Source: Schlesneria sp. DSM 10557
Lineage (GTDB): Bacteria > Planctomycetota > Planctomycetia > Planctomycetales > Planctomycetaceae
DNA: 64,000 nt
Direction: 5' to 3'
Assembly: GCF_041860085.1 (NCBI RefSeq)
Contig: NZ_CP124747.1
Coordinates: 2,914,001-2,978,000 of the forward strand
This document shows positions 15,396-31,180 of this stretch, in pieces (position 1 is the first letter of the stretch; every line of letters starts with the position of its first letter). The position numbers and the translations under genes are program-made. The notes beneath the pieces were generated by a model. The model was not told the origin of the DNA and made no database searches. It saw only the letters and a list, made by a program, of their open reading frames with translations.

Positions 15396-15481
15396 GGCCG
15401 AGTGGCGAAACAGGCAGACGCACAGGACTTAAAATCCTGTGGGACGAAAGTCCCGTGCGGGTTCGAGCCCCGCCTCGGCTA
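15396..15481 (+). tRNA. tRNA-Leu, anticodon UAA
   Basis: A cloverleaf can be drawn with the acceptor stem GGCCGAG/CUCGGCU (a G-U pair at position 1-72) and discriminator A. The D-arm GGCGAAACAGGCAGACGC is typical of leucine tRNAs. The anticodon stem-loop is CAGGA-CUUAAAA-UCCUG, giving anticodon UAA, and there is a long variable arm GGGACGAAAGUCCC. The T-arm is GCGGG-UUCGAGC-CCCGC. CCA is not encoded. The 3' half, from the anticodon stem onward, is repeated exactly at 31,111, marking the integration site of the element that follows. The gene is intact on this side, so the host tRNA stays functional. Confidence 0.97.
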
Positions 15482-15495
15482 ATAACTTACGGCGA
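15426..15495 (+). repeat. attL: left attachment repeat of the integrative element
   Basis: The 58 bp at 15,426-15,483, covering the 3' part of tRNA-Leu(UAA), are identical to 31,111-31,168. After one mismatch a further 11 bp match (15,485-15,495 with 31,170-31,180). This is the usual footprint of a tyrosine integrase acting on a tRNA gene. The crossover lies somewhere in the identical part, most likely in the anticodon or T-arm region. Confidence 0.93.
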
Positions 15496-15551
15496 ATTGA
15501 AAGACGGCGAAAAACCCTGATCCATGTATAATCCATGATTGCAATCCGAAA

Positions 15552-16709
15552 TCAGCCGGTCTCGCCCGACCTGAGATTGGGCGGGACGAAAAGGTTGTCC
15601 ACTGGCTTTTTCAACCGCCTCGCCATGTTCACGTAACCTTTGGTCGTTTCTAGCGACTTGTGCTGCATCAGTGCCTGCAACTGGAACAGGTCCATTTCAT
15701 CGCCGTTCATCGTGGCGAACCCTCGCCTGATGTCGTGGAATCCGTACCACTTGCCGCCCTTCCCCCCTTTCGGGAGTGGCGTTCCGTCTGCCAGGGTTGC
15801 CGCCGCCTGAATCGCTTGGAACGTCGGCCACAGCTCCCGTCGATTCTTGTTCCACGGGAAGACGTGAGTATCGAACGACCCCGACACGAGTTCTAATTGC
15901 GCCGCGACCACGGGGTGAAGTGGGATTCTCTCCTCACGCTTCCCTTTGTTTCCGACCACCTCCGCCTGAATTGTGATCGTCCGTTCCTTAAGGTCGATAT
16001 CCTCCCATCTCAGCGAGAGTAATTGACCGATGCGCCAGCCCGTCATGTAGCCCGTCACCAGCAAGGCTTTCCACCAATCCGGTGCGTTCACATTAGGAAT
16101 GTCGCTGGGAATCTTCGCGTCCTTACATGCCTGAAAGATCGCTGCGAAGTGGTCAGGAGGAATGTAGGTTGGAATCTTCTTCGGTTGCTTCAGGAATCGG
16201 ATCTTTGGTTTCTTGGTGATCATCCCCCATTCCTCGGCGATATTCATCACCAGGCGAATGTATCGCAGATCCTTATTCACGGTGGCGGGTGAGAGCTTCT
16301 CACCGTCCAGCCCCGGATCTTTCAAACGGTTCGCAATGAACTTGTCGACGAACTCCGTCGTGATGGACGCAACCAATACCGGCTTGGCCACACGCTCGAA
16401 TGCGTCCAGAGACTGACAAATAGCGGATTGAGACATCGCCTCGAATCGTGACGCCACTTTCTCCATGTACCGAGCCCGAAACGCCTTCCAGGTCGTTTTC
16501 CCTTTTGGCTTGTACGTTCCCGTCACCAGCTGGGAATGGATCGTGTCGGCCAGCTTGTTCGCGGCCGTCTTTCCGATCTTGCCAGGCCCGCAGGACTTCG
16601 TACGTAGAATTCCCTCCGGGTCGTAGTGGGAGACGTACCAGGATGCCTTCTCCGCACCCTTTGCCTCAACCTGTTTCTTCAGTTGATGAACCCAAGCCCG
16701 TTTATCCAC
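15552..16709 (-). CDS. int: Tyrosine recombinase / integrase of the element
   Basis: The protein has an arm-type N-terminal domain (WYVSHYDPEG...SCGPG), a core-binding domain and a catalytic domain. Numbered from the GTG at 16,709, the catalytic set is complete: R226 (GWRIGQLL), K255, H325 and R328 (FHDIRR), H350 (MQHKS) and Y359 (TTKGYVNM). It should carry out integration and excision at tRNA-Leu(UAA). The gene lies 56 bp inside attL and points towards it. An upstream in-frame ATG at 16,841 would overlap the Fic gene by 88 bp. GTG 16,709 removes that overlap, has GCGGGG upstream and gives a normal length of 385 residues. Confidence 0.95.
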   Translation of the reverse strand: MDKRAWVHQLKKQVEAKGAEKASWYVSHYDPEGILRTKSCGPGKIGKTAANKLADTIHSQLVTGTYKPKGKTTWKAFRARYMEKVASRFEAMSQSAICQSLDAFERVAKPVLVASITTEFVDKFIANRLKDPGLDGEKLSPATVNKDLRYIRLVMNIAEEWGMITKKPKIRFLKQPKKIPTYIPPDHFAAIFQACKDAKIPSDIPNVNAPDWWKALLVTGYMTGWRIGQLLSLRWEDIDLKERTITIQAEVVGNKGKREERIPLHPVVAAQLELVSGSFDTHVFPWNKNRRELWPTFQAIQAAATLADGTPLPKGGKGGKWYGFHDIRRGFATMNGDEMDLFQLQALMQHKSLETTKGYVNMARRLKKPVDNLFVPPNLRSGETG

Positions 16710-16753
16710 GAGCAGTGCCCCGCAAAACAGTGGACGATTTCCCGTCACGCACT

Positions 16754-17380
16754 CTACCGCTTGATCGATCGCAACTGCTGTTCGAGTAATCGATTCAACA
16801 GGGACTCCATTTCGCTTACGTCCACGTCTCCTCGTTGCCATGCGGCATCTGCTGCATCCAGCGCTGCGTAGTAGGGTTGCTTTGCTCCAACAATAAGCTC
16901 GGGGACGGTGGGAGAGCCTGGCAGCTCGGTTTGAAGCCCAATGGAAAGCGCCAAATAGGACACCGCTCTCGATGTTCTTCCATTCCCGTCACCGAACGGA
17001 TGGATCCAGTTCAGTCGCCACATCAAATACGCGGAAACGTGAAAAGGAGAATCAATCTTTGAGTTCGCGTATTCGCACATTTCATACACGAGTTGCGGAA
17101 CGTCCTCCGGAGGAGGCGGCGAATGCGGCGTATTGGTGATTGAGACAGGATGCTGTCGAAAACGTCCAGCAGATGACCAGATTCCCTTTGTTGCAAACCA
17201 TTGAAGATCTTTAACAAGCTCAGGCGTTAAATTGAACCGCCAGTTTGATTCTCTAATCAGACGAAGGACTTCGTCAAATTGACGAAGTCCATTCTGAGCT
17301 TCAAGAAACGCGACTTCATTTGGATCGTCAATCAACTGAACATGCGTTGTCGGATTGGCCAGTGCAGTGCTTCGTCTCAC
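16754..17380 (-). CDS. Fic-domain protein, probable AMPylating toxin
   Basis: The 208-residue protein carries the complete Fic active-site motif HPFGDGNGRTSR (residues 127-138), with the catalytic His and the Asp, Asn and Arg needed for ATP binding. Fic enzymes transfer AMP or another nucleotide moiety to target proteins; bacterial toxins of this type often modify topoisomerases, but the target here cannot be told. No inhibitory helix is seen within the protein. Instead, the small upstream gene overlapping it by 53 bp carries an SFAYGN motif like separate Fic antitoxins. GTG at 17,380 is the likely start. The next gene downstream is the integrase. Confidence 0.92.
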   Translation of the reverse strand: MRRSTALANPTTHVQLIDDPNEVAFLEAQNGLRQFDEVLRLIRESNWRFNLTPELVKDLQWFATKGIWSSAGRFRQHPVSITNTPHSPPPPEDVPQLVYEMCEYANSKIDSPFHVSAYLMWRLNWIHPFGDGNGRTSRAVSYLALSIGLQTELPGSPTVPELIVGAKQPYYAALDAADAAWQRGDVDVSEMESLLNRLLEQQLRSIKR

Positions 17381-17776: not shown

Positions 17777-17944
17777 TCAGGTAAAATTTTCTTCTTCTGA
17801 CCGTTTTTTCACCCGTTTAAAGGCTTCTTGTCTAGATGCCATCGAGACAACAAACGGAGGCGGGGCACCCACACCCTCGCGCTCCGTCGTGCTCGATTCT
17901 GAATTGCTGCAATTTTTCAAAGATCAGTTCCGGCCATCAGGTCG

Positions 17945-18091
17945 TCACTCGTCGTTCAGCTTTTCCATGATCCATTCAACGCCGTCGGGGTCGTCATCTT
18001 CAAGCTTCTTTAGTTCCTCGACGATCAGCTTCAGGATCCGATGCCGTTCGACCTGCTGTGCCAGGGATGCTTCGACTTCTTCAATGGTCAC
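17945..18091 (-). CDS. Small acidic helical protein of unknown function
   Basis: GTG at 18,091 overlaps the stop of the upstream gene as GTGA. This makes it a better start than the ATG at 18,136, which lies within the upstream gene. The 48-residue product is rich in Glu and Asp (LKKLEDDDPDGVEWIMEKL) and predicted to be helical. It resembles no family I know. It is part of the overlapping leftward chain of small element genes. Confidence 0.6.
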   Translation of the reverse strand: MTIEEVEASLAQQVERHRILKLIVEELKKLEDDDPDGVEWIMEKLNDE

Positions 18092-18318
18092 GCTACAGCC
18101 TCCTCTGTCGCTTCCAGTTCTGTTGGGACGTTGCACAGACGGCCATAAACAGAGACGCTACCAGTCTTGTTCTTGCACGCCTCGCGGATTGCCTCCATGA
18201 GAATTTCAGCTTCGTAGATCACACGACGATTCTTGATGACGATAAACCGCCCCAGCGGCTTCGGTGGCGTTGATGGTGGCTTCGCCTTGTTCGGCGTTTT
18301 CCGTGGTACAGTCTTCAC
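18088..18318 (-). CDS. Small unknown element protein
   Basis: The 76-residue protein starts at a GTG that overlaps the upstream stop codon (GTGA) and ends in a GTGA overlap with the next gene. The N-terminus is basic and Pro-rich (KTPNKAKPPSTPPKP) and is followed by a beta-strand-like segment (RFIVIKNRRVIYEA). Its last residues, EEAVA, repeat those of the protein encoded immediately upstream, which may indicate a local duplication. No function can be assigned. Confidence 0.65.
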   Translation of the reverse strand: MKTVPRKTPNKAKPPSTPPKPLGRFIVIKNRRVIYEAEILMEAIREACKNKTGSVSVYGRLCNVPTELEATEEAVA

Positions 18319-18722
18319 GCTACCGCCTCCTCTGCTGGAGTCTCGGAATTGACCATGCTGGCGATCCGATCCAAGTCTCGGTCGTCAGGCACTGTCTCAA
18401 TCGCTTCAGCAGCCGCCAGCATCAACGCGGACTGCTCACGAAGCCACTCGGCAACCTGGGACGGCAGAGGCTTCCGCAGGTCGAATTCTCCCTTCTGCGG
18501 ATACCACGAATAACAGAGGGTCGCTGCCTCCTCGTTCGTCGCTGGTCGGAACCCGTCTTCGCCCTGATCTTCCTCGGTTTCCGCCATAACGAACGATTGG
18601 AACCCGGAATGCTCGAGTAGAACATCCTCCGTCACGGAATCCGCTGCCTGATCAATCAGGTCGGTCGTCGGTCGCGTGATCTTGTCCAGACGATAGGCCA
18701 GTGGGTTTTCGATAGGCTTCAT
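18315..18722 (-). CDS. Unknown element protein, 135 residues
   Basis: ATG at 18,722 forms an ATGA overlap with the gene upstream and is preferred to the ATG at 18,785, which lies inside that gene. The protein is acidic with a helical C-terminal part (SQVAEWLREQSALMLAAAEAIETV). I recognise no domain. It is in the leftward chain of coupled small genes between the control region and the Fic/integrase block. Confidence 0.65.
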   Translation of the reverse strand: MKPIENPLAYRLDKITRPTTDLIDQAADSVTEDVLLEHSGFQSFVMAETEEDQGEDGFRPATNEEAATLCYSWYPQKGEFDLRKPLPSQVAEWLREQSALMLAAAEAIETVPDDRDLDRIASMVNSETPAEEAVA

Positions 18723-18904
18723 TCTGTCGCTCCTTCTGTGGTTACGGTGTGGGGATCGTTCCAGAACCATTCGGCGTCGACGCAAACGAGCGTCCTGCCG
18801 TTGTGCTCGAATGGACAGAACTTATTCTGCCTCGCGAGTCTCACGATCGATTCAGGGACCGGGACTTCGAGATTGTCCAGACTGGTCGCTTGCTGCTTAG
18901 ACAT
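18719..18904 (-). CDS. Small unknown element protein, 61 residues
   Basis: The start at 18,904 is preceded by a GAGAGGG ribosome-binding site. The product contains a compact segment, FCPFEHNGRTLVCVDAEWFW, with two Cys that could form a fold or bind metal, though there is no standard motif. The stop overlaps the next start as ATGA. Confidence 0.6.
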   Translation of the reverse strand: MSKQQATSLDNLEVPVPESIVRLARQNKFCPFEHNGRTLVCVDAEWFWNDPHTVTTEGATE

Positions 18905-18941
18905 ACGTTCTTACCCTCTCTGGGGATGTGATGGACTGGAA

Positions 18942-19412
18942 CTACTGCCGCGAGAACTCGATCCTTCTGCGACGATCCCGGTGGAATGACTCGTCCCTGA
19001 TATTCGCGTCGTCACCCGGTCGAACGATCTCAACGAGCTTGCAGGACTTGGGGTCTCTGCCTGAGAGAATGTCGACGCGGCAACCAAGCGCCTTTGCCAG
19101 CGATTGTGCGGCACGTTCTGCACGCTTTTCGCAGTCGTACTCGATGCCGTCGACGTACCACACTTGGCGATTATGGTACTTGTCCAGAAACTCAATCGCC
19201 TTCTCGGTCAGCACCAGGACAGCTTTGTCGTCACCGAACTGCCCCAACTTCCGAACGGCTTTGACATGCTTGGGACATGCCAGGCACTTCCTCACGAGGT
19301 GTGCTGAGTTTGGCTGGTCCGGTTCCTCCGTCAGTTCGCAGTTGCAGGCATAACATCGGGGGAACGCGGCCAGCATTTCACGGCGCAGTCGTTGCTTTAT
19401 TCGCTGCCTCAT
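18942..19412 (-). CDS. Unknown protein with two CxxC-type zinc knuckles
   Basis: The N-terminal part carries CYACNCEL and, about 25 residues later, CLACPKH, so a zinc-binding module of four or more Cys is likely. The N-terminus is strongly basic (RQRIKQRLRRE) and the C-terminus is rich in Arg and Asp. This fits a nucleic-acid-binding or regulatory protein, which is inference. The start overlaps the upstream gene as ATGA. Confidence 0.65.
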   Translation of the reverse strand: MRQRIKQRLRREMLAAFPRCYACNCELTEEPDQPNSAHLVRKCLACPKHVKAVRKLGQFGDDKAVLVLTEKAIEFLDKYHNRQVWYVDGIEYDCEKRAERAAQSLAKALGCRVDILSGRDPKSCKLVEIVRPGDDANIRDESFHRDRRRRIEFSRQ

Positions 19413-20014
19413 GGGGTCACCGTCCCTTCGTCCGCCAATTTGGGATCGGTGACGGAATCAGCACGACGCAAACTGATTGTCCATTGGCGGGGGATGCGAG
19501 CCAGTGCGAAACGGACCTTGTTCGCAGCATTGGCCGTGTCCTCGGCAGTGCGGAACGTGAGATTACCCTGCACACACTTCGGGAAGTCGGCTGGGTTCGC
19601 TGGTCGGTCCTGCAGAGCGATCCCCGACAGAATCACGACTGATCCCCGATTCGTCAGGAGTGCCCATCGCCGTCTGTTCCTGCTGGTTTCGCTCTGGTTG
19701 TAGAGCAACACGTACTGGGCAGCGAGTTCCATTCCCAGTTCATCAGTGACGCTGGGGGGAACGTCGCGGGAATTGGCGGGTTCCCAGCTCACGTTCTGGA
19801 TGGTGAGCGTCCCGCAGGTGGGTGAGTCCTTCCAGTGGTTGCGAGGCTTCTTGAGCCGCTCCATTGCCTCGGTCGCTTCCTCGATCGACAGAGGAGTCCC
19901 GGAAATGGCTCTTGGGGCGTCTGGAATCGCCAATGGGATCTGTTCGTCGTCCGTGACCTGAGAAGCACCGTCTGGTCTGTGTGCGGCATGAAAAATAGGG
20001 GTGTACGTCGCCAT
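19409..20014 (-). CDS. Unknown protein heading the integrase-side leftward transcript
   Basis: ATG at 20,014 (MATYTPIF) is chosen over the ATG at 20,047 because AAGGGAG lies at the right distance upstream. The 201-residue product has no recognisable domain. The C-terminal half contains a possible beta-rich segment (RRWALLTNRGSVVILSGIAL). It is the first gene after the control region at 20,015-20,366 and is followed by at least eight co-directional genes ending in the integrase. Confidence 0.7.
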   Translation of the reverse strand: MATYTPIFHAAHRPDGASQVTDDEQIPLAIPDAPRAISGTPLSIEEATEAMERLKKPRNHWKDSPTCGTLTIQNVSWEPANSRDVPPSVTDELGMELAAQYVLLYNQSETSRNRRRWALLTNRGSVVILSGIALQDRPANPADFPKCVQGNLTFRTAEDTANAANKVRFALARIPRQWTISLRRADSVTDPKLADEGTVTP

Positions 20015-20366
20015 AAATGAGACTCCCTTGTGAGAATGTGGCACCATCCAGGCACCGAGCGCAACGGTAGCGCGGAGCCTGTTCAGGTACGTGGGGACAC
20101 CGTGTCTGAGAACTCTGAGGCGGGCCTGAAAACGTCAGTGCGTTTTGGCCGGAGAGAAAATGAAACAACCCCCGTCGAAGTCTGTTACCACACAAGACAT
20201 CTCGACGGGGGTCGATGATCTGATTCGTATTGTTCGGTCGCGAGTGTTGTCGCTCGCTGCTGTCTTGTGTGGTAGGAGAGAAATTATCGAGTGATTCGAG
20301 AGTTGTCAAATAACTTTTAGAAAACTCTCAAAAATCTCTTTTCGAGTTTTCCGAAAGCCAGAGACG
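20015..20366. promoter_or_regulatory. Divergent control region with nested inverted repeats
   Basis: This region separates the leftward transcript starting at 20,014 from the rightward genes starting at 20,367. It holds a perfect 10-bp inverted repeat, CCCCCGTCGA / TCGACGGGGG (20,169-20,178 and 20,202-20,211). A perfect 14-bp inverted repeat, TACCACACAAGACA / TGTCTTGTGTGGTA, lies at 20,186-20,199 and 20,261-20,274. The left arm of the second sits inside the loop of the first. A notably AT-rich stretch (20,280-20,345) follows with a further GAGAGTT/AACTCTC pair. This could be a switch operator region, an origin, or both. Confidence 0.6.
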
Positions 20367-20699
20367 ATGTCTAATGCGACCATGGCACGAAACCACTACA
20401 GCCCAGAGCAACTTGAACGAATCGCCGATGAGCTTGTCGACGCGGCATCGCTCTTGCGGGATACTGCGTCTGCCCTTCGTCAAAACGACGTTCCTCAGGT
20501 CCTGCTGCATGGGACTATGTCAATTCAGACACACGTTCCTGCAATTTCAGACTGGTCGGGAAAGGTTTCCCTCGACGCGAAGGCTCAGATCAGAGCGTAC
20601 CTCGCTGGGGTTCCTAGCCGAGCTGAGATCCATATCAAGCAAAATGAGCAGGCCAAGACATCAGCCGCCAGGAAGCCTCGGAAGAAGCCTGGGACATGA
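20367..20699 (+). CDS. Unknown protein, first of the rightward pair
   Basis: The 110-residue protein has a helical N-terminus (SPEQLERIADELVDAASLLRDTASALR) and a basic tail (ARKPRKKPG). No family is recognised. Its stop codon overlaps the start of the following HTH gene, so the two are probably translated together. It is transcribed away from the control region, opposite to nearly everything else in the element. This is the usual place for an immunity or lysogeny-control pair. Confidence 0.65.
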   Translation: MSNATMARNHYSPEQLERIADELVDAASLLRDTASALRQNDVPQVLLHGTMSIQTHVPAISDWSGKVSLDAKAQIRAYLAGVPSRAEIHIKQNEQAKTSAARKPRKKPGT

Positions 20700-21091
20700 T
20701 AGTCTTCACTCCAACTCAGCAACACATCGACGCAATCGCGACTCTCTTGATTCACTGGGGAGAATGGGAAATGGAGCACGGATGCAAGCTAAAGCATCGA
20801 GCACAGAAAAAGCCTCATCGGCCAGTGAAGGGACCGCGAAAGAAGATTGAAGCAAGTCGGGAATCGTCGCCAACCGAATCCCCGCCGATACCGAAGCCTA
20901 CGCTCACCAGCTCGACGATGCTAACGAACGCGGAAGCGGCAGCATTCATCAATGTGAAGCCGGGGACACTCGATAGCTGGCGTTACATGCAACGTGAGGG
21001 CCAACCACCTTACCATAAGCTCGGGAGACTGATCCGGTATCGCCTCGGGGAACTAGAGTCGTGGCTTGAGTCGAACAGGGTCGAGTCCTGA
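20696..21091 (+). CDS. HTH protein with excisionase/AlpA-like C-terminal domain
   Basis: The last 55 residues, beginning MLTNAEAAAFINVKPGTLDSW and ending in GRLIRYRLGELESWLES, form a MerR-like winged HTH of the HTH_17 type found in excisionases and AlpA activators. The first 75 residues are a basic, Pro/Ser-rich extension. Proteins of this kind direct excision or activate integrase genes in phages and satellites. Together with the upstream small gene it is the only rightward module in the element, so it is my candidate for the element's switch protein. Confidence 0.75.
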   Translation: MIVFTPTQQHIDAIATLLIHWGEWEMEHGCKLKHRAQKKPHRPVKGPRKKIEASRESSPTESPPIPKPTLTSSTMLTNAEAAAFINVKPGTLDSWRYMQREGQPPYHKLGRLIRYRLGELESWLESNRVES

Positions 21092-21185: not shown

Positions 21186-21542
21186 TCACCTTGGCTTGAC
21201 CGGCATAGTTGCCACCTTGCCAGTGCTTGTTTCGTACTTGACTTCGCGTGGCTCTTGAAAGGTGTCGCCTGGCGACACCTTTTCACGCAACTTGCACACA
21301 AATGAATGATGAACGCCACATCGGGCAGCTATCTCGCGTGCAGACCACTGCGACCACTCAGGATCATTGAGAAATGTAACCAAAAGGTGACAAAAACTGC
21401 TTTCGCCAACATTAGCGAAAGCAGTTCCCAACCACCACCGAACGCGATAAACGCGATTTCCGCCACTGAGAATCTGGACGATGATTCTATCGGGGGAATC
21501 GATCGGAACGCGGGAGAATCGATCCTCGCGAACCGATTTCAT
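21186..21542 (-). CDS. HTH protein, ParB/phage-regulator-like C-terminal domain, possibly truncated
   Basis: The segment LNDPEWSQWSAREIAARCGVHHSFVCKLREK is the HTH that follows the GAN-x-HGLRRTNADKR block in a common group of ParB-like phage and plasmid proteins. Here the preceding block is shortened and disturbed (FANVGESSFCHLLVTF). The coding sequence in that place contains a perfect 12-bp hairpin and a repeated 18-mer. ATG 21,542 overlaps the stop of the upstream gene as ATGA, which supports the frame. The protein may be a decayed or re-used fragment of a larger regulator. Confidence 0.6.
   Translation of the reverse strand: MKSVREDRFSRVPIDSPDRIIVQILSGGNRVYRVRWWLGTAFANVGESSFCHLLVTFLNDPEWSQWSAREIAARCGVHHSFVCKLREKVSPGDTFQEPREVKYETSTGKVATMPVKPR
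21379..21426 (-). terminator. Hairpin with T run inside the HTH gene, plus repeated 18-mer
   Basis: Perfect 12-bp arms AACTGCTTTCGC (21,395-21,406) and GCGAAAGCAGTT (21,415-21,426) enclose an 8-base loop. Read on the minus strand the hairpin is followed by TTTTT, as in an intrinsic terminator. The next bases form the 18-mer ACCAAAAGGTGACAAAAA (21,379-21,396, plus-strand sense), which occurs identically at 22,549-22,566, also directly after a hairpin. The structure lies inside the open frame of the HTH gene, so it would act as an attenuator if functional. Confidence 0.55.
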
Positions 21543-21835
21543 TGAGAACGCTCAGCAAGTGCCTCCAGCAGCAGCTTTGCGGTCTCCCGTTGCCGATCTG
21601 ATCCCGTCAACGCCGCTTCCATTGCCGCAGACTGCATCTCGGCAAGTTGCTTCTCTGTCACTGGCCAGCGATTACGCAGTGCCTGAAGGAACAGCCGCAG
21701 GTCACTCCGCTTGACCTTGCAGGGATTGCCGCGTGAGAATTTATTCCCGACACCGAACCATCCGCTGTGGGGCTCTCGACTGGATTCACCGTTTGCTGAC
21801 GGCGGACCGCCATCATCCATGAATTTTTCACCCAT
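21539..21835 (-). CDS. Small protein with GNKFxxGNP motif, DUF5681/terminase-small-like
   Basis: The segment GWFGVGNKFSRGNP followed by a helical region (LRLFLQALRNRWPVTEKQLAEMQSAAMEAAL...) resembles short phage-associated proteins that combine a GNxF-x-x-GNP motif with a helical domain. Some of these sit in the position of terminase small subunits. Such an assignment is suggestive only. The stop overlaps the next start as ATGA. ATG 21,835 lacks a clear ribosome-binding site; the ATG at 21,820 is an alternative. Confidence 0.5.
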   Translation of the reverse strand: MGEKFMDDGGPPSANGESSREPHSGWFGVGNKFSRGNPCKVKRSDLRLFLQALRNRWPVTEKQLAEMQSAAMEAALTGSDRQRETAKLLLEALAERSQ

Positions 21836-21923
21836 GTAGTATTACCGCTGCAAAAAGTTTCTGACGGACACGAAGCGCGAGCAGGACCACCCGCTTGCCG
21901 TGTTTCGGTCCAGCAGGGACCCG

Positions 21924-22112
21924 CTACTCATCACGGGGGATCAGCTCACGTTGCACAGACTTGAATCGATACCCGCAGGTCCGGCATCTGTGCCACCGAA
22001 TAGGCCGTCTGGTTGATGTGACGGGACAGTCCGCCCCTCGGCATCGCTTTCGCGGACACTGAATGACGTCGTACACGATCGGTCTCGGGTCGACTCGTGG
22101 GTCTCGTGGCAT
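21924..22112 (-). CDS. Small zinc-ribbon protein
   Basis: The frame encodes VIQCPRKRCRGADCP and, after about 15 residues, WHRCRTCGYRFKSVQ. This CP...C / CxxCGxxF pattern is typical of small phage-type zinc ribbons such as Com- or Ogr-like regulators. It overlaps the next listed frame by most of its length. Either the two are separate genes with an unusual overlap, or an ancestral single protein has been split by a frameshift. The ATG at 22,112 is the best available start. Confidence 0.5.
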   Translation of the reverse strand: MPRDPRVDPRPIVYDVIQCPRKRCRGADCPVTSTRRPIRWHRCRTCGYRFKSVQRELIPRDE

Positions 22113-22270
22113 TCTGGCTCCAGGTCGTGAGCACCTCGCATACGTCGGGTGATCCGCTCGCCGTGCGACCACTCGCGCCTGATCCGCGCACACTCCGCTT
22201 CGATCTCTGCTGGTGTCGGCAAGTAGATCGGCTTCCGGCGCCGTGTCAGTGGTTCCGGGTTGGTGATCAC
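21941..22270 (-). CDS. Small unknown protein with LPTPAEIEAEC motif
   Basis: GTG at 22,270 overlaps the stop of the upstream gene as GTGA, in keeping with the rest of the operon. The N-terminal part (RRKPIYLPTPAEIEAECARIRREWSHGE, split here across two helices) resembles short conserved proteins I associate with planctomycete genomic islands. The C-terminal half, from about residue 50, reads like the wrong frame of the zinc-ribbon gene at 21,924-22,112. The real end of the protein may therefore be earlier, or a frameshift may separate the two. Confidence 0.45.
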   Translation of the reverse strand: MITNPEPLTRRRKPIYLPTPAEIEAECARIRREWSHGERITRRMRGAHDLEPECHETHESTRDRSCTTSFSVRESDAEGRTVPSHQPDGLFGGTDAGPAGIDSSLCNVS

Positions 22271-22600: not shown

Positions 22601-22621
22601 CCCCGGCCTACTTCAGCCAGA

Positions 22622-23916: not shown

Positions 23917-24109
23917 AGACTCCTCCGTGAAGTGGCGAGCCAGTGCCCGCCGTTGATTGAAAAACGCATGCTCTCGATACCCGACGTGCCCGCCGTGGAA
24001 AGGCCACTGGTGTCACCTCGATGAGCTGAGTGACGGATGCGTCGGAAGCTATGCGACGCTTGAACGGCAACCGCGTGCCGAGTGGGAACAGGTCAATATC
24101 GTTCGGGTC

Positions 24110-24808
24110 TCAGATCAGTTCAGGGTTGCAGCACCACTCGTCTTCAATGGCTTTCCGCTCGACCTTCTGGTCCTCGAACAGCTGATCAAGTTTCAACCGC
24201 CGCTGGTCCAATGTCTGGATCTCCGCGTCGAGACGGACAGCCCGTTCTGCAATCGTCGAATCATGCCCGCTCGACAGTCGGTTACGGCAGTCGTCGAGAG
24301 CATTCTTCGCGTCTTTGAGTAGCCCTGAGACGGTCTCATGATCCCGCAGTCGTGCCTCACATCGCCGCTCCAGTTCATCGAGCTTGCTCAACGCCTCGGG
24401 ATGGCGACAAGACTTGATCAGCTCGGCCCGCGCCGCCTTACCGTTGGCTACCCGCTTCTGTGCCTCGGAGACAGCACACTGATTGTCATAAATCTGACTG
24501 TTGAACTGTTCAATCAGCTGATCCCGCTGCTTCACCAGATCGCCAATATCCTTCCCTCGCTGGGTGATCTCGGCTTGTGCGCCATCTATCAAGTCCATCT
24601 TTCGCCGCAGGTCCCGTCGTCGCTCGATCGACAGTTTGAACTCCTCCAGATCCGCGACAGTCAAGCCGCTTTGTTCCAGGTCCTCGTAACTCACATCCTC
24701 CGCACGGACGTAGGCCCTGATAACCCGCTGTCGCAGCAGTTCTCGCTGTTCCTTTCGTGCTGCCTCCTCTTGGAGTAGCCTGTCTCGAAGTGTCGGTCCG
24801 TCAGTCAT
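24110..24808 (-). CDS. Coiled-coil protein of unknown function
   Basis: ATG at 24,808 follows the metallopeptidase stop codon by 4 bp and has AGGAAAGGTG upstream. Nearly the whole protein (residues 10-225) is charged and heptad-like, for example LRRKMDLIDGAQAEITQRGKD, which predicts a long coiled coil. Three Cys near the C-terminal third and the end are scattered. The shape would suit a scaffold- or tether-like role, but no homologue is recognised. Confidence 0.65.
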   Translation of the reverse strand: MTDGPTLRDRLLQEEAARKEQRELLRQRVIRAYVRAEDVSYEDLEQSGLTVADLEEFKLSIERRRDLRRKMDLIDGAQAEITQRGKDIGDLVKQRDQLIEQFNSQIYDNQCAVSEAQKRVANGKAARAELIKSCRHPEALSKLDELERRCEARLRDHETVSGLLKDAKNALDDCRNRLSSGHDSTIAERAVRLDAEIQTLDQRRLKLDQLFEDQKVERKAIEDEWCCNPELI

Positions 24809-24812
24809 GTGC

Positions 24813-25697
24813 TCACCTTTCCTCAAGTGAAGCGGCTAAAATGCGAACGTCCGAAGTTGGTACGGTCGCTGGTTTGCTGAGAGTTACAGGGTCGTGCCCC
24901 GTGTCGCTGGCCCAAACATCGAGCAGTCGCTTTGGCGGTTCCGACTTGGAAATCGCGCTCAGTGGCAAGTGCTTCATCGTTTGAATTTCGTCGCTGACTG
25001 CTTCGAGATACGCCCACGGGTCGCCATAGCCGAAATACGACCATGCCATCAATTGAACTAACGGCAGCCGAAGTTTCGTTGCCTCGATCAGTCGGCCAGA
25101 AACATGCAACGCCAGCCGAATGAATTGCCAGTCGTGATGAACCCATTTGGGATGATCTGCATATTCTGGAAGTTCATCTGGATCGACTTCGGTATCTTCC
25201 TTGAACACCTGAAATTTCGTCTCTTGTCGAATGTGGTTGAAACTCGTGCACCAGTGCGGGAAGCACCCAACGCAGTGCGCCAGCTCGTGCCCCGCGACTT
25301 GCAACAGCCGTGAGTACCAGTCTGTATAGTCCTCGTCCGCTGCTGGGGGATCGTCTCGCAAACAGAACGCAGGTCCGATGCCCCGCCACTGTGCCCCGAT
25401 CTGTGGACGCAATGTGTCGGCCAGGTCCTGAGAAGTGATCCCGCAGAGGCTATCGTGCCATCGCAGGCCGATCTCAGTCTCCCCAAGGATGTACAACCTA
25501 CGGCACTTCGACTGCCGCAGTTCGTGCCTGATCATCGGCTTCAGGGTGTCTATCAGCTTCTGCCGTTCCCGTGCCCACGAGAAACGCCACGGTCGGACGA
25601 TCTTTGGCGCAGGTCGCTCATACGCCTTGATCCATCGCCGTTCCCCCGTGCTTTCGTCGAGCCACAAGATTTTTTGGTAGGGGTTGTTTCTGTTCAA
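24813..25697 (-). CDS. Putative zinc metallopeptidase with HExxH motif
   Basis: The motif VAGHELAHCVG places the zinc-binding His at residues 137 and 141 and the catalytic Glu at 138. The protein is rich in Trp and His and has no signal peptide, so it should act in the cytoplasm. The start is TTG at 25,697 with GAGAGG upstream. It lies in the transcript between the helicase block and the coiled-coil gene. A role in processing an element or host protein, for example a repressor, is possible but is only inference. Confidence 0.7.
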   Translation of the reverse strand: MNRNNPYQKILWLDESTGERRWIKAYERPAPKIVRPWRFSWARERQKLIDTLKPMIRHELRQSKCRRLYILGETEIGLRWHDSLCGITSQDLADTLRPQIGAQWRGIGPAFCLRDDPPAADEDYTDWYSRLLQVAGHELAHCVGCFPHWCTSFNHIRQETKFQVFKEDTEVDPDELPEYADHPKWVHHDWQFIRLALHVSGRLIEATKLRLPLVQLMAWSYFGYGDPWAYLEAVSDEIQTMKHLPLSAISKSEPPKRLLDVWASDTGHDPVTLSKPATVPTSDVRILAASLEER

Positions 25698-25799
25698 AGT
25701 AGCCTCTCTCGGTTCCGCTTGGGATGGGGGTGAAATTTTGGGTGGCGCGCGGGATCGTGTGCAGTAACAAGGTTTGTCGACCTGACAGGAACCTATCCT

Positions 25800-26000
25800 T
25801 CATGGCCCCCTCCCTTCATGCCGCAGGATCACCTCACCATCACGCCTGATCTCGATCGATTGCTTCGACATTGTTCGGTCTGGTCCGATCCTCACCTCAT
25901 TGTGATTCTCGATCTGTAGCCGTGGTGCAGTCGGCCCGATCGGCACCTGATCGCAGCAGCCGAGACTCAGCAGTGCCGCCGCCCATCTGTGTGATCTCAT
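25800..26000 (-). CDS. Small possible lipoprotein
   Basis: From ATG 26,000, which overlaps the upstream stop as ATGA, the product begins MRSHRWAAALLSLGCC. This is a short basic and hydrophobic stretch ending in a lipobox-like LSLGC. The remainder is a polar 50-residue domain. A small membrane-anchored lipoprotein is plausible. Small size and weak features keep confidence low. Confidence 0.5.
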   Translation of the reverse strand: MRSHRWAAALLSLGCCDQVPIGPTAPRLQIENHNEVRIGPDRTMSKQSIEIRRDGEVILRHEGRGP

Positions 26001-26191
26001 CGCCTGCCCTTCCAATTTCGATTCGGCTTTCCTGATCGCTTCCGGCCTGCTGCCGCCGCGATGTCAATCAGGGGTCGTGTCTGCCCGCTCTCGTCGGTCC
26101 AGTTGAGCCACCGACACCGCTGGCAGTTCCATCTGCCGGACTGGGGCTTGCTCGATGTCTCGCCGCAGCCTGTGCATTTTGGTGGGGTCAT
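25997..26191 (-). CDS. Small zinc-ribbon protein
   Basis: ATG 26,191 overlaps the upstream stop as ATGA. The 64-residue product begins MTPPKCTGCG and continues WNCQRCRWLNW, a C-x2-C...C-x2-C ribbon, and ends in a basic tail (GRKRSGKPNRNWKGRR). Nucleic-acid binding is likely. It is one of several zinc ribbons in this element. Confidence 0.6.
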   Translation of the reverse strand: MTPPKCTGCGETSSKPQSGRWNCQRCRWLNWTDESGQTRPLIDIAAAAGRKRSGKPNRNWKGRR

Positions 26192-26544
26192 GATTTCCCC
26201 TTCGGCTTGAATATCCACTCGAACCCGGCGATCGAATTGCCTGGGGAATGTCGATCGAGCAGGTAATTGCGATACTCCTCCCCAACCGGACCGCGATCTA
26301 AGATCGTTCGGTTCTTGGCTTCAGCTTCCGAGAACTTCAGCCGACCGTCTGCGGCCAAGTACAGCGTCACTGAGAACTTTGCGGGGTCGTCCTCCCAGTT
26401 CGTCGCGAACGACTCAAGCCATTCATCAAAACTGATTCCGGTTCCCAGTTGCTCATGTAACCGTCTCGCATCGACGACGGTGATCGTGCTGCCGTCGACT
26501 CGGAGTTGTTCTGGTTCAAGTTGGACGTGTGTCTTTTCTGTCAT
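26188..26544 (-). CDS. Unknown element protein, 118 residues
   Basis: The start has GAGGAAAG upstream and the stop overlaps the next gene as ATGA. The protein contains RLHEQLGTGISFDEWLESFATNWEDD and an aromatic C-terminus. I recognise no family. It follows the DnaB-type helicase gene by 77 bp. Confidence 0.65.
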   Translation of the reverse strand: MTEKTHVQLEPEQLRVDGSTITVVDARRLHEQLGTGISFDEWLESFATNWEDDPAKFSVTLYLAADGRLKFSEAEAKNRTILDRGPVGEEYRNYLLDRHSPGNSIAGFEWIFKPKGKS

Positions 26545-26621
26545 GCTTCTTTCCTCGATTTTGTGGGTAATGTGAATTGCCTGTGCATGTTTTGAGATTC
26601 AAGATTCGACGGCTTATTGGC

Positions 26622-27968
26622 TCACCAGACCACCTCCTGTTCCTCTGGCCCCAGCAGTCGCTGGCGCACTGGATCGATAGTCATCTGAATGACCGCCTGA
26701 CTGATGCCGCGACTTCGATTTTTCGCGTGGTAGATTCGATACTCGGTCGGGTCGGCGTAGTTTGGATCTACCTTTGCAGGCCATTGGATGAACAAAATCA
26801 CGTCAGCATCTTGCTCCAACTGGCCCGAGTCCCGCAGGTCGCTGAGTTGTGGGACCGCAGACTGACGGCTTTCGATCGACCGGCTGAGTTGTGCGAGCAG
26901 TAACACGACAATCTCATGCTTGGTCGCGACCCGCTTCATCCGGGTTGATACGTCGCTGACCTGCTCGTACTTGCTGGAGCCAGCGCCCTTCAGTAACTGG
27001 GCATAGTCCACTGCAACGATCTTTACGCCGTGTCGCCTGACCGCCGAAGCAATCGCACGTTCTGCGACATCCACCGATCCGCAGGACTCAGCCACCAGTA
27101 ACGGCGCCCGTCCCGCGAAGTGCTGTTGGGCTTCGTATTTCAACCGCTCCAGGTCCGCTGACCAACCATTCACATCGGTCGGCATGATTCTCTGAACGGT
27201 CCGCTTTGCCAGGCTGATCGCCGACATCTCTTCGCTGACGATCATAGCCGGGACACCGTGCATCGTCGCTTGCTCAACCCATTGCAACGCGGACAACGAT
27301 TTTCCCTGACCCGGTCGCCCACCAATGATGATCAGCTCGCCAGGTGCCACCCCGCCTATCGCACGGTCAATTGCAGGAATCCCCACTCGCATTGTTTCCG
27401 CTTCGCCGCGTGCCAATCCGTCGACGTACTCGTGAACGACATCAGACATCAACTTTTCACGTCGACATCCAACTTGCGGCAGGTCCTCAGCCAGTCGGAG
27501 CAAGCTCGACCGCACGCCCTCGATACTGGCATGGGACTCCGTTAGTTTCAGCAGATCCTCGAGCCCACGCTGTAGCCTCCGCAGAGAAGCTTTCGAGTTG
27601 ATGATCGAGATCCACTCTGCAACGTGCTCGGCCCCGAACGACTCGGCCTGATCCAATAATTCGAGCAGGTAGTTCACGCCGTCCGGCAACTCGCCCAATT
27701 TCCCGGTTTCCGACAGCCGATCGCCGACGGTCAGCACGTCAACTGGTCGCTGTTCGTCTGCCAACTCAATCATCGCGGCCAGTGTGGCCCGATGAGCATC
27801 ACCCACCAGTGCCGACAGATCGAACTCGGTGATTGTGTCCCGCAGTTCATCGAACCGGACAAGCAACGTGCCCACCAGCAGTTTTTCAGCGTAGTCCGCA
27901 CGAATGAGCCCCCCTTCGAACGGGATCTGCCATTTCTGGGCGCCGCGTCGTGTACGCGCCTCGCTCAT
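26622..27968 (-). CDS. DnaB-type replicative helicase of the element
   Basis: The protein has a DnaB-like N-terminal domain (residues about 22-125) and a RecA-like helicase domain. Walker A is GRPGQGKS (217-224). Walker B is VAVDYAQLL (D321). A motif like AQLSRSIESR and SGQLEQDADVI follow, as in DnaB. The length of 448 residues is normal. It should unwind DNA at the element's replication fork. It is preceded by, and overlaps as ATGA, a phage-type initiator gene that could load it. An autonomous replication module is unusual for a passive island and supports episomal replication after excision. Confidence 0.93.
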   Translation of the reverse strand: MSEARTRRGAQKWQIPFEGGLIRADYAEKLLVGTLLVRFDELRDTITEFDLSALVGDAHRATLAAMIELADEQRPVDVLTVGDRLSETGKLGELPDGVNYLLELLDQAESFGAEHVAEWISIINSKASLRRLQRGLEDLLKLTESHASIEGVRSSLLRLAEDLPQVGCRREKLMSDVVHEYVDGLARGEAETMRVGIPAIDRAIGGVAPGELIIIGGRPGQGKSLSALQWVEQATMHGVPAMIVSEEMSAISLAKRTVQRIMPTDVNGWSADLERLKYEAQQHFAGRAPLLVAESCGSVDVAERAIASAVRRHGVKIVAVDYAQLLKGAGSSKYEQVSDVSTRMKRVATKHEIVVLLLAQLSRSIESRQSAVPQLSDLRDSGQLEQDADVILFIQWPAKVDPNYADPTEYRIYHAKNRSRGISQAVIQMTIDPVRQRLLGPEEQEVVW

Positions 27969-28726
27969 TGGATGATACCTCCGAGTGAATTGGTTCGGAT
28001 CTCGGAGATTGGCTGAATACGTGGGGTGGTGACGTGCCCTGTGCGATGTGGTGTCAGTCCGTCGCCAGCGGAATCCGTGGTCGACCAGTTGCGGACCGCT
28101 GCCCTCCAGTCCTTCATCGCGTTTCGACCAACCTTCCAGCCGTTCGACTCGTAGTGATCAACGAACTTCTGCGGATTGATCGTCGACGAGATCTCACGGC
28201 AGTAGGCCGACACTTCAGTGGCAGTAGGCTTAACGAACCTCACGACCTTCGGTTTCAGTTCTATTTCCCCATTCCCCTTTGGGTGGCGTGCGTCTTCTTG
28301 ATGCACACTCTTACTATCCATTCCATTAGACTCCATTCCGTCGCGAGGAGTCGTCGAATGCTCGACGATAACTCGACGAGTGCTCGACGAATTTTGACCA
28401 TCAGGACGAGGGTATTTCTTGGTGGGTCGGTCTATCTTTTGGTGCCGATCCCAGCCTGTAACATGCCAATACCTCTCGTTTTCAGCCTCAAACTCAATGA
28501 TCAGGCCGTTCCGCTTTAGTTCGTCGACCATGCCTTGGATCTCTTCATCGGCGATCGCATCACCTGGGAAAACCTCCATCTTCAATCGCTTAATGCTCGC
28601 GGGATGAACTCCGCCGTCGTCGCAGAAGCACCACAAGCCGACGAACAGCAGTCGAGCACTCGTCGAGCACTCGACGATTTGTTCCGACGTGAAGAATTCC
28701 GGCTTGATCGTGCGAATGCGTGCCAT
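27965..28726 (-). CDS. Phage-type replication initiator / helicase loader
   Basis: From ATG 28,726 the protein begins MARIRTIKPEFFTSEQIVEC, followed by SARLLFVGLWCFCDDGGVHP. This is the N-terminal winged-helix pattern of phage replisome organisers (related to DUF1376 and phage O proteins). A low-complexity Ser/Asp linker leads to a C-terminal domain with VDHYESNGWKVGRNAMKDWRAAVRNW, typical of the same group. Its start shares a base with the upstream stop and its own stop overlaps the helicase start. An origin may lie within or near the gene, as in lambda-like phages; I could not see clear iterons. Confidence 0.82.
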   Translation of the reverse strand: MARIRTIKPEFFTSEQIVECSTSARLLFVGLWCFCDDGGVHPASIKRLKMEVFPGDAIADEEIQGMVDELKRNGLIIEFEAENERYWHVTGWDRHQKIDRPTKKYPRPDGQNSSSTRRVIVEHSTTPRDGMESNGMDSKSVHQEDARHPKGNGEIELKPKVVRFVKPTATEVSAYCREISSTINPQKFVDHYESNGWKVGRNAMKDWRAAVRNWSTTDSAGDGLTPHRTGHVTTPRIQPISEIRTNSLGGIIQ

Positions 28727-28995
28727 CAATACACCTCCCGATCGATGCCGTATTGACGCAAAACTTTCGGCAGGATCGCCCCCAGCAGGACAGGCCCGCA
28801 AGCTGGTGAATCGTCTGACACGCGACTGCCAAACGCATTCAGTCCATGTCGTCGCCGCAGTCTGATGGACGCATCTCGCAGGATCGCCCGCACTCCGGGT
28901 GTGAGCCCGATAGCCGAGTCGACGACAACACGGAACGGCGCAGTCGGGATTGTTCGTCGCTGGATCTTGCTACTTAGTTGTGACGCTCGTATCAT
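28726..28995 (-). CDS. Unknown small protein upstream of the initiator
   Basis: The 89-residue basic protein has AAGGAAA ahead of its ATG and ends in a TGATG overlap with the initiator gene. It has no motif I recognise. A GC-rich hairpin (CCCCGTG...CACGGGG) followed by TTTTT on the plus strand lies just upstream at about 29,014-29,053. Confidence 0.6.
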   Translation of the reverse strand: MIRASQLSSKIQRRTIPTAPFRVVVDSAIGLTPGVRAILRDASIRLRRRHGLNAFGSRVSDDSPACGPVLLGAILPKVLRQYGIDREVY

Positions 28996-29271: not shown

Positions 29272-29556
29272 TTAGATCCTTGGCTCAGACCGATTCCGCG
29301 CCAGGTACTGCAGCAGATCAGATCTCGTGTACCGGATGCGGCGACCGACGATCTGGCTGGCCCCGATACGGCCCCTGCCCCGTTCGTCCCGCAGTTGATG
29401 CGGTTCAAGCCCAATCAGCCGAGCAGCTTCGGGTTCGCTGAATGCGAGACGATCGCCGAGTTTGGCTTCATCTGCTTTGATCGCTGCAATGGTTTCCGCG
29501 ACGACAGACGCGACAAGTGGTCGCAAGTCGTCCTGAGTGAGTGACACGGTCAGCAT
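29272..29556 (-). CDS. HTH_17-type DNA-binding protein
   Basis: The C-terminal half reads AFSEPEAARLIGLEPHQLRDER and IVGRRIRYTRSDLLQYLARN, a MerR/excisionase-like winged HTH. The N-terminal 35 residues form an acidic helix. It overlaps the gene before it by 7 bp. It could act as an excisionase or as a transcription regulator of the replication transcript. Confidence 0.75.
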   Translation of the reverse strand: MLTVSLTQDDLRPLVASVVAETIAAIKADEAKLGDRLAFSEPEAARLIGLEPHQLRDERGRGRIGASQIVGRRIRYTRSDLLQYLARNRSEPRI

Positions 29557-29780
29557 GAAACCGACTCCGCCTGCGGGAGCCAGTTCAGCCGGCGCAACTC
29601 ATTCGCCACGGTATCTACGTCTTCGAGTGCCAGAGTGCGGTACACTCCGACTCGCTGGATATCGATCGCGTTCCGTGCGTCCAACGCATCGACAACGCGA
29701 CGCATCTTCCATGCGGGAATTAGTTCGCCGCCATGTCGACTATGAATCGTCGCAGCTACGTCCGTGATTGTGAGCCTCAT
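29550..29780 (-). CDS. Small HTH-like protein opening the replication transcript
   Basis: The 76-residue protein contains LTITDVAATIHSRHGGELIPAW and a RRVVDALDARNAIDIQRVGVYRTL segment, resembling a short DNA-binding domain. It is the first gene of the long leftward transcript. The ribosome-binding site GGGAG lies within the 3' arm of a perfect 9-bp dyad at 29,780-29,823. Confidence 0.6.
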   Translation of the reverse strand: MRLTITDVAATIHSRHGGELIPAWKMRRVVDALDARNAIDIQRVGVYRTLALEDVDTVANELRRLNWLPQAESVSC

Positions 29781-29823
29781 ATCGTCTCCCTGTGTGGTCA
29801 GCCATGTGACTACAGAGACGATA
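29780..29823 (-). promoter_or_regulatory. Dyad covering the ribosome-binding site of the first replication-transcript gene
   Basis: The arms TATCGTCTC (29,780-29,788) and GAGACGATA (29,815-29,823) are perfect inverted repeats. On the minus-strand transcript the second arm reaches into the start codon and contains the GGGAGA sequence that serves as ribosome-binding site. The structure could act as an operator or as an RNA hairpin hiding the start. Confidence 0.55.
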
Positions 29824-29899
29824 GGCCCAAAGAACGTCGTCGAAAATAGGCTTTCGCTGCTTTCAGAAGCAACATAAGCAACCGAAGAAACAAACTAAG

Positions 29900-30889
29900 C
29901 TAATGACTGTTCAGGAGACGCTGGATAGGTCGTTTTGGTGGATCTTCGCTGAACTTCAAGTATGGAAATTGTTTCTCAAGAACGGGTTTCAACTGGACGT
30001 AACTGAACTTGCTCGGTTGTCGTCCGCGTGAGGCAATGATCGGTTCCGGCCAGGTCTTTTCATACGGCGCAAGCGAAGTTCGCTCTAATCCAACGAGGTC
30101 TGCAATTTCAGTCGGTGTGTATAAGTCTGCGAGGCCATTCGAGACAGCACTGGGTGTGATAGGTTTCGGTAAAGCCATGATGTTAGGGTCGTCTTGCTCC
30201 AGTAGAATCGGCAAGTCTGTCTCAGCTTCCACCTTGATCACTTCAGTCTGAATCTTGCGATTCGACCGAGCCCCCCCCAGTACAGATCTTTGTGGGGACG
30301 TTTCATTCCTCAACCGCTCCAACTCTCGGATGCAGTCCGATACAGTCGCCGCCTCTGCTGGCCATGCCGGTTTGTTTTCCGTGACGTTCGACAGCAGCCA
30401 TAGGTGCGCGTGCCGGACAGCAGATCGACCGAATGACAGATCGTTTGCGCGTGCCACGTCTGCAATCGTGTCACCCAGCCACCGCGAGAATGCGTCTGCC
30501 GTATTTAACGCATACTTCGGAAGTTCAAACTCCCATCCGCGAGGCAGTTCCTTGCGTTCATCGACCAGAGAACTCAGTCGGAAAAAAGCGTCATCCAACC
30601 ACCGCAGCCGATCTCGTTTTGCGGCCTCTCGTGTGACAACTTCGTGTTCAGGTTGCGGGGATTCGGTCCATTGGATGGGATGGAAGATGATTCCCATTCC
30701 AGTAAGACTCTGAATCACGTGCGTTGCGAACGTATCGGCGTAGCCCTTCAGTTCGTCAACGCCCCACGGCAGATGTGGTCCGTACTCCGCTTGTGGTGTG
30801 CGCTGCCATTCGACGTCCCTCAGTAACTCAACGCAACTTCCAGCCAGGTCATCTTCCATATCGCCCGCCCCATGCGTGCCAGCCCCCAT
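29900..30889 (-). CDS. Unknown protein with C-terminal HTH-like domain
   Basis: The 329-residue protein has no recognisable enzymatic motif. Its C-terminus, YTPTEIADLVGLERTSLAPYEKTWPEPIIASRGRQP, followed by FSYVQLKPVLEKQFP, looks like an excisionase-like HTH. The N-terminal region is helical with conserved-looking Trp. ATG 30,859 is an alternative start. It is the element gene closest to attR. A 120-bp gap with regulatory dyads separates it from the replication transcript. Confidence 0.65.
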   Translation of the reverse strand: MGAGTHGAGDMEDDLAGSCVELLRDVEWQRTPQAEYGPHLPWGVDELKGYADTFATHVIQSLTGMGIIFHPIQWTESPQPEHEVVTREAAKRDRLRWLDDAFFRLSSLVDERKELPRGWEFELPKYALNTADAFSRWLGDTIADVARANDLSFGRSAVRHAHLWLLSNVTENKPAWPAEAATVSDCIRELERLRNETSPQRSVLGGARSNRKIQTEVIKVEAETDLPILLEQDDPNIMALPKPITPSAVSNGLADLYTPTEIADLVGLERTSLAPYEKTWPEPIIASRGRQPSKFSYVQLKPVLEKQFPYLKFSEDPPKRPIQRLLNSH

Positions 30890-31110
30890 TGAATCAAAGC
30901 ACCGACCACGGAGCGAATGGGGATCGCTTTTCGGGGATCAGCCTAGTGGCCGGCGCGTGTACTGTCAGACATCCCGTCTTTTCGTTCCATGTCAATTCCA
31001 TGTCCACGGCACGATTTCACACGGGATCAGCACGATCAGTATAGCAAAAAAACAGCTTTGTTTCTTGCCTTTTCCGTAGTCCTCGAAAGTATAGAATAGC
31101 CCTTACTTCC

Positions 31111-31180
31111 GACTTAAAATCCTGTGGGACGAAAGTCCCGTGCGGGTTCGAGCCCCGCCTCGGCTAATGACTTACGGCGA
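31111..31180 (+). repeat. attR: right attachment repeat
   Basis: 31,111-31,168 repeats 15,426-15,483 exactly (3' part of tRNA-Leu from the anticodon stem to beyond the discriminator). After one mismatch, 11 more bases match. The 5' half of the tRNA is absent here, so this copy is not a gene. Confidence 0.93.

Follow-up and report, generated by a model that had tools for sequence, protein, structure and literature searches.

Element A in the tRNA-Leu(UAA) gene of Schlesneria sp. DSM 10557: a candidate phage-satellite-type integrative element with four siblings in the same genome

Which kind of mobile DNA has entered the tRNA-Leu(UAA) gene of the planctomycete Schlesneria sp. DSM 10557, and does it depend on a phage? 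The DNA analysed here, referred to as the window, is a stretch of 64,000 nucleotides (C1:2914001-2978000) from a genome consisting of a single contig of 7,067,087 bp. Within it an initial annotation, made from the letters alone, had pointed out an integrative element in the tRNA gene; we call it element A (15426-31180) and give its features in window positions. That element A is a mobile integrative element, as described then, is virtually certain, since the flanking repeat, the adjacent integrase and the recurrence of the same arrangement elsewhere all support integration in tRNA-Leu(UAA). With a probability of roughly 0.65 we read it from its sequence as a phage-satellite-type integrative element, one of a family that swaps modules, because siblings carry a capsid gene, an element with a related integrase in another planctomycete carries a terminase, the cassette common to the siblings is related to distal tail genes, and neither relaxase nor virion genes were recognised in element A itself.

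The two attachment repeats span 70 bp with a single mismatch at 15484 and are spaced 15,685 bp apart. Because of this mismatch the exact core is only 58 bp (15426-15483 and 31111-31168), which is the repeat first reported, while the end point given at that time, 31,180, is that of the 70-bp block. An exact match of 58 bp inside 64 kb far exceeds chance. Sequence 5' of the block does not match between the copies, and the right copy begins at the anticodon arm without the 5' half of the tRNA, so that it represents a displaced tRNA 3' part and not a second tRNA. The tRNA on the left side is intact, again as first described, and is the only one detected (ARAGORN in the whole window; Rfam in 15000-32000). 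A tRNA duplication, named in the initial annotation as a finding that would speak against integration, was ruled out on these two grounds, the partial right copy and the single tRNA. The tyrosine integrase just inside the left repeat was confirmed as well, and 70 bp separate its end from the tRNA 3' end. The claim that both boundaries could be given to the base was too strong, as the crossover falls somewhere within the identity block, so that the ends are defined by this block and not by a single base. GC content is 55.4% within element A, 57.5% to the left and 56.1% to the right; being similar inside and outside, composition marks no boundary.

Element A is a member of a family, and neither this membership nor its satellite-like character had been recognised before. 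Genome searches with its 294-aa (amino acid) protein (3 copies) and with profiles of its 154-aa (6 copies) and 131-aa (6 copies) proteins lead to five elements, A-E, and to a phage gene cluster, F. Each of the five is integrated in its own tRNA gene with a different integrase, these integrases making up 5 of the 12 PF00589 matches genome-wide; at least four relatives of A are therefore found in its own genome, B-E measuring 10-17 kb with exact repeats of 25-57 bp. BLAST comparisons show the 131-aa and 154-aa pair (hallmarks 1 and 2) to be the only clear proteins common to all five, and a short piece of DNA at about 17.9-18.1 kb likewise aligns across A-E. Elements D and E both encode a 453-aa HK97-type Phage_capsid protein (in D, PF05065 4.9e-32 and phrog_10 6.4e-23; the E copy is 98% identical). 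The D protein has tblastn matches in 19 phage records, the top one at 36% to Streptomyces phage Dagobah, and matches a single capsid-type chain in the PDB (0.0016). D also holds a weak match to a terminase small subunit (phrog_83 8.4e-6; PF23931 0.0023, below cut-off). Portal, protease, connector and large terminase were not recognised in the 10 proteins scanned (7 of D and 3 of E, with several smaller open reading frames (ORFs) unscanned). Element C encodes a 599-aa AAA_25/DnaB-N protein. A second tyrosine recombinase (478-aa frame, C1:2794813-2795292) lies just outside E beside the tRNA-Arg gene and possibly belongs to another or an older element.

Definitions of phage satellites are given in PMC13376191, PMC10803314, PMC10690885 and PMC11389934; in the first of these the criteria include attL/attR repeats with an integrase, a size of 7-20 kb, excision and replication genes, an incomplete virion gene set, a packaging signal or a gene that redirects packaging, and induction by a helper phage with transfer in its particles. 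Element A has such repeats and an integrase of its own, and at 15.7 kb it lies within this size range together with its siblings (10.0-17.1 kb). Excision or regulation is represented by an excisionase-like helix-turn-helix (HTH) protein, replication by a replication initiation protein (Rep) and a DnaB-type helicase. Rep has tblastn matches in 502 phage records, and the excisionase-like 94-aa protein and the 76-aa protein paired with it are each 62% identical to counterparts in an element of the congener G007. The virion gene set is incomplete: among the 31 ORFs listed for element A, 27 of them scanned with Pfam and 29 with PHROGs, no head, capsid, portal or terminase family was matched, and one tail-protein match in PHROGs (E 0.035) was not significant. 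These scans thus found neither the large terminase and portal nor the capsid and tail genes of a temperate phage, and an own capsid with head-assembly genes, as in capsid-forming phage-inducible chromosomal islands (PICI), was not recognised either. The Fic protein matches Fic chains in the PDB (best 1.6e-12) and contains HPFGDGNGRTSR, read directly in the sequence; PDB searches with the 294-aa protein and Rep gave no meaningful match. Small zinc-ribbon-like proteins are present, below the Pfam cut-off. The initial impression of an almost entirely unknown cargo holds for most genes, which have no family, but genes for replication, for excision and for a Fic protein could be recognised.

Element A could also be a very small autonomous phage with capsid and packaging proteins too diverged to be recognised, given that several common genes (238, 294, 145 and 138 aa) have no assigned function and that siblings D and E possess a capsid gene. 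Apart from the integrase and DnaB, however, its longest proteins are of 329 and 294 aa, which is short for a large terminase plus a portal, and no head or packaging family was matched by either; we hold such a phage to be very unlikely.

The connection of the family to phage tails comes from cluster F (C1:3814-3833 kb; 3814000-3833300). It contains a capsid gene (PF05065 1.5e-34; phrog_10 4.2e-28), a head-tail adaptor (phrog_442 1e-23) and a minor tail protein (phrog_290 4.7e-19), and near its distal end both hallmark homologues, the only further copy of the pair found in this genome. The 131-aa-like gene was matched at E 1e-5, and at 3.1e-21 after F joined the profile, and the 154-aa-like gene at 55% over 77 aa. 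An N-terminus of the form MPNPGD.. CPCC.. with a Ser run recurs in the congener G004, 0.6 kb past the last large tail gene, and at a contig end of G001, which carries an F-like capsid gene on the same contig. In F, G004 and G001 the homologue of the 131-aa gene has a distal place in the cluster, and we infer from this that A-E encode a form of a distal tail protein of the F phage lineage. Position is likewise the ground for assigning the 131-aa protein to the tail, as no family was matched by the large genes surrounding it.

Members of the genus have retained cluster F. Its capsid is 85-89% identical in G004 (C58), G007 (C22) and G014 (C201), the adjoining host genes are similar in G004 on one flank (72-82%) and in G007 on the opposite flank (27-51%), and F-like capsids at 48-49% are found in another genus too (G066, G320). 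It is, in our view, a candidate for a domesticated phage or a gene transfer agent. At C1:3830351-3833260 an IS66 transposase gene (PF03050 4.7e-38) interrupts a protease-like gene of F that is continuous in the F clusters of G004, G007 and G014; the protease-like call is weak (for the G007 copy, phrog_617 4.9e-8 over the first part, phrog_80 0.016 and no Pfam match). Because of this split, F was considered unlikely as an intact helper and is probably no working helper in its own genome. Genes for a large terminase (TerL) and a portal (C1:3994800-3997795; PF03237 5.5e-24 and PF04860 2.4e-31) were located elsewhere on the contig, and none were seen by eye adjoining the F clusters. A small gene beside this pair resembles, by eye, one near the G007 F cluster, and perhaps a single element has been split.

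Alignment of A with B covers 7,302 bp at 99.37%, all 46 differences being at the outer edges. The core of the alignment, from the cassette through Rep, is identical, and beyond its sharp edges the sequences diverge; this block would stem either from an exchange that took place very recently between the two co-resident elements or from a repeat collapsed during assembly. In the cargo slot, B and C are alike over 1,339 bp (97.8%); the slot encodes in both a 122-aa and a 198-aa protein, the latter weakly matching SocA/Panacea below the cut-off. D and E align over 3,287 bp at 94.8%, capsid gene included. Between A and C the ratio dN/dS is 0.12-0.32 for six of seven genes, among them the first 156-aa gene (0.23) and the 212-aa gene (0.12), and 0.67 for the remaining one. 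These comparisons bear on the idea that A is what remains of a formerly complete temperate phage, now stripped of its structural genes and persisting as a stable, passive island. Such an origin would fit the phage-type Rep, DnaB and integrase in an element in which no structural genes were recognised. It would also fit a deletion in A, where at 21539-21835 a total of 346 bp present in B is absent and a pair of small genes (of 149 and 78 aa in B, and of 145 and 78 aa in C) has been fused into a single 98-aa ORF. Five similarly organised elements in five tRNA genes with different integrases argue against it, as independent decay to the same common cassette is unlikely, and so do the purifying selection in six of the seven genes and the 6,975 bp that A and B appear to have exchanged recently. 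On balance we find a remnant unlikely.

The tRNA-Leu(UAA) gene is, from the sequences compared, an insertion hotspot in the genus. Partial 3' copies of it occur in 5 of 14 congeners (G001, G004, G006, G007 and G012), and a sixth, in G011, has its start at the edge of a contig and is possibly a full copy cut off there. Both copies are on one contig in G012, G004 and G007. The 35.5-kb G007 element is a prophage, based on its portal and protease-capsid genes. By eye, the large elements of G012 and G004 contain restriction-type and other large genes and look like defence-carrying mobilizable islands. None of these three elements has a cassette gene of A-E, and their integrase matches are weak. Use of the same tRNA gene by the G012 element with its TrwC relaxase would be in keeping with element A as a mobilizable island (integrative mobilizable element, IME), moved in trans by a conjugative element through an origin of transfer (oriT). 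No relaxase family, as looked for in an IME or an integrative and conjugative element (ICE), was matched among the 27 ORFs scanned with Pfam; mating-pair genes were sought through the same general scans and oriT was not searched. The siblings and the integrase kin have phage capsid and terminase genes instead, and an IME appears quite unlikely to us.

A comparison with empty sites, in which the tRNA should run directly into the sequence after 31,180, had been suggested in the initial annotation, and no clean empty site was found through right-flank synteny in congeners. Flanks were compared at 7 loci from 6 congener genomes. The amidohydrolase-like left neighbour of the intact tRNA-Leu(UAA) is kept at four of the seven (G001, G002, G005 and G014; 72-73% identity), and in these four genomes none of the right-flank proteins of the window (>=150 aa) is near the tRNA. 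The only right-flank protein searched genus-wide (37090-38304) is on other contigs in most congeners; in G007 its orthologue lies 557 kb away from the tRNA, and in G009 ~30 kb. As the right flank of A starts in a C-terminal fragment of an ISL3 transposase (31140-31727; PF01610 5.5e-31, profile 103-240 of 240), it appears to have been reworked, maybe by other insertions. The 16 bases past the tRNA in G001 and G002 equal the right copy at 15 of 16 positions and the left copy at 13 of 16, which is what an old host junction on the right side would predict. Over all 14 rows of this comparison (L031 and L033 of the 16 loci gave no row) the right copy is better in four, the left in three, and seven are equal.

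Integrase matches at E 1e-3 were found in 32 of 40 genomes, the own genome included, and tRNA direct repeats at three of the eight integrase loci examined, the other five being without such a repeat. Among the three is the element of G036, the other planctomycete mentioned above, with a terminase large subunit (phrog_9 3.7e-28; PF03354 1.3e-5, above cut-off) and a primase with a D5-like domain in the five proteins scanned. A further sample comprised nine planctomycete loci (L126-L134, from a set of 80), one of which, L129, is Pan216. A tRNA gene lies <200 bp from the integrase at six of them, three times tRNA-Leu, and a tRNA repeat was found at none of the nine within the sequence stretch examined. 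In G027 a long CRISPR-like array (~30270-32820 of the joined stretch L055+L056) is situated ~13 kb from an integrase homologue.

If element A is a phage satellite, its integrase would excise it, aided by the HTH protein, and Rep and DnaB would replicate it. The element DNA would be packaged in particles from a tailed helper phage, and the 131-aa protein common to A-E would replace or supplement a distal tail part of that helper. The Fic gene of A, or the SocA-like pair of B and C, would be cargo benefiting the host or the element, and the siblings would exchange modules via recombination inside the cell.

Several results weigh against a satellite. No helper was identified, F being interrupted by IS66 and the TerL/portal pair lying ~160 kb from it. 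No packaging-redirecting gene was recognised in A (cos and pac sites were not searched), and no capsid-remodelling gene was demonstrated there. Close kin of the cassette were found in no genome but the own one, and scans of IMG/VR with the integrase, two hallmark queries, the 294-aa protein and the D capsid gave relatives in none of five cases. Counting the own genome each time, the 294-aa protein is present in 4 of 149 genomes (the other three matches weak), the 131-aa profile in 6 of 247 (E up to 0.01) and the 154-aa profile in 17 of 392; a D-type capsid above 37% identity was seen in D and E only, and any capsid match in 36 of 247. The 131-aa protein had no match among phage records. At four loci that were read, the Cys-rich domain of the 154-aa protein has as neighbours genes that are glycosyltransferase-like by eye or unrelated, and for this reason hallmark 2 was rejected as a phage-only marker. 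AlphaFold models of the 294-aa and 131-aa proteins were low (pLDDT 34.6 and 34.1) and were not used. As to the helper, it could be a conserved domesticated F-type particle, possibly a gene transfer agent, instead of an ordinary infectious phage; the satellites riding it would bring the matching distal tail part, and D and E also their own capsid protein. We see this as improbable.

Table 1. Features of element A (window positions), its siblings, and tRNA-associated tracts in other genomes
Feature	Location	Strand	Basis or remarks
tRNA-Leu(UAA), integration target	15396..15481	+	ARAGORN, Rfam
Left attachment repeat, attL side	15426..15495	+	exact to 15483
Tyrosine integrase, 429 aa	15552..16841	-	PF00589 8.8e-15; phrog_1 1.2e-41
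Fic/DOC protein, 208 aa, cargo	16754..17380	-	PF02661 1.2e-19; PADLOC SoFic 1.7e-19
Short stretch including a 63-aa minus-strand ORF, aligning in B, C, D and E	17882..18107		DNA alignment; A-D 51 bp only
Genes of 156, 61, 156 and 212 aa, homologues in B and/or C	18315..20047	-	no family; 61-aa ORF scanned with PHROGs only
Two genes, 110 aa and 131 aa (HTH_17); variable cargo slot	20367..21091	+	Pfam, sibling comparison
118-aa protein, weak HTH match below cut-off; 98-aa protein, apparent gene fusion	21186..21835	-	
Block 100% identical to element B (C1:5796071-5803045)	21832..28806		6,975 bp
154-aa Cys-rich protein, DUF6171-like, hallmark 2	23052..23516	-	PF19668 1.8e-5, below cut-off
131-aa protein, MPNPGDVIV start, Ser-rich, hallmark 1	23521..23916	-	85-100% identical in B-E
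238-aa protein, coiled-coil-like by eye	24110..24826	-	no significant family; 47% identical in C
294-aa protein with HELAH motif	24813..25697	-	98-100% in B and C; dN/dS 0.21
DnaB-type replicative helicase, 448 aa	26622..27968	-	PF03796 1.2e-43; phrog_19 2.7e-58
Replication initiation protein (Rep), 278 aa	27965..28801	-	phrog_2149 7.5e-36
Excisionase-like HTH_17 protein, 94 aa	29272..29556	-	PF12728 1.7e-8; phrog_66 7.2e-6
76-aa protein, paired with excisionase-like gene	29550..29780	-	phrog_14130 0.0018
329-aa protein, attR end	29900..30889	-	no family match
Right attachment repeat, attR side, tRNA 3' part and following bases	31111..31180	+	
Element B, tRNA-Gln(TTG)	C1:5789471-5806037		57-bp exact repeat; integrase with Arm-DNA-bind_3
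Element C, tRNA-Lys(CTT)	C1:807858-824989		25-bp repeat; integrase is the PF00589 match 823765-824205
Element D, tRNA-Ala(GGC)	C1:299793-310211		44-bp repeat
Element E, tRNA-Arg(CCT)	C1:2796103-2806064		45-bp repeat
G036 tract, tRNA-Leu(UAA)			58-bp repeat, 15.0 kb; related integrase (46-49% identical)
G007 tract, tRNA-Leu(CAA)	G007:C21		57-bp repeat, 19.2 kb; related integrase
G001 tract, tRNA-Leu(CAA)	G001:C265		61-bp repeat, 4 kb; integrase match confined to a 41-aa fragment
G012 element, tRNA-Leu(UAA)	C5:25080-65986		63-bp repeat, 40.8 kb; TrwC relaxase
G004 element, tRNA-Leu(UAA)	C124:15412-71557		60-bp repeat, one mismatch, 56.0 kb
G007 element, tRNA-Leu(UAA)			59-bp repeat, 35.5 kb; portal and protease-capsid genes

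Should the satellite reading be true, phage satellites would be extended to the phylum of the planctomycetes; a literature search found no paper joining 'phage satellite' and 'planctomyc', most subscription papers being outside its coverage. Five co-resident siblings in one single-contig genome would have exchanged integrase, replication, cargo and particle genes, and A-E would offer a natural experiment on satellite evolution and on the gain and loss of a capsid gene. A defined prediction would follow, namely particle-borne gene transfer in planctomycetes.

Among known systems, the G012 TrwC element has the attachment gene and a similar repeat in common with A, but differs in its length, its relaxase and its many large genes; its integrase is ~20% identical to that of A over 232 aa, and no cassette gene is common to both. 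Tycheposons and VEIMEs are tRNA-integrated, modular elements with tyrosine recombinases, some of them satellite-like, and have been described in marine bacteria. Their likeness to A is one of description only, and the hosts differ, a planctomycete as against marine bacteria. Both are named in PMC11389934. D and E resemble the capsid-forming PICI of that paper in having their own HK97-type capsid and, in D, the weak small-terminase match. They differ in that the 10 D/E proteins scanned gave no match to a portal, a protease, a connector or a large terminase, and A is without a recognisable capsid gene. With phage satellites in general (PICI, P4-like, PICMI; PMC11389934, PMC13376191 and PMC10803314), A has in common the att/tRNA flanks, the size, integrase, excision and replication genes and the incomplete virion set, and its family shares with them possible cargo such as the Fic or SocA-like genes. 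The differences lie in the planctomycete host, in the presence of five family members with various integrases and tRNA genes in one genome, and in a common cassette that is related to distal tail genes.

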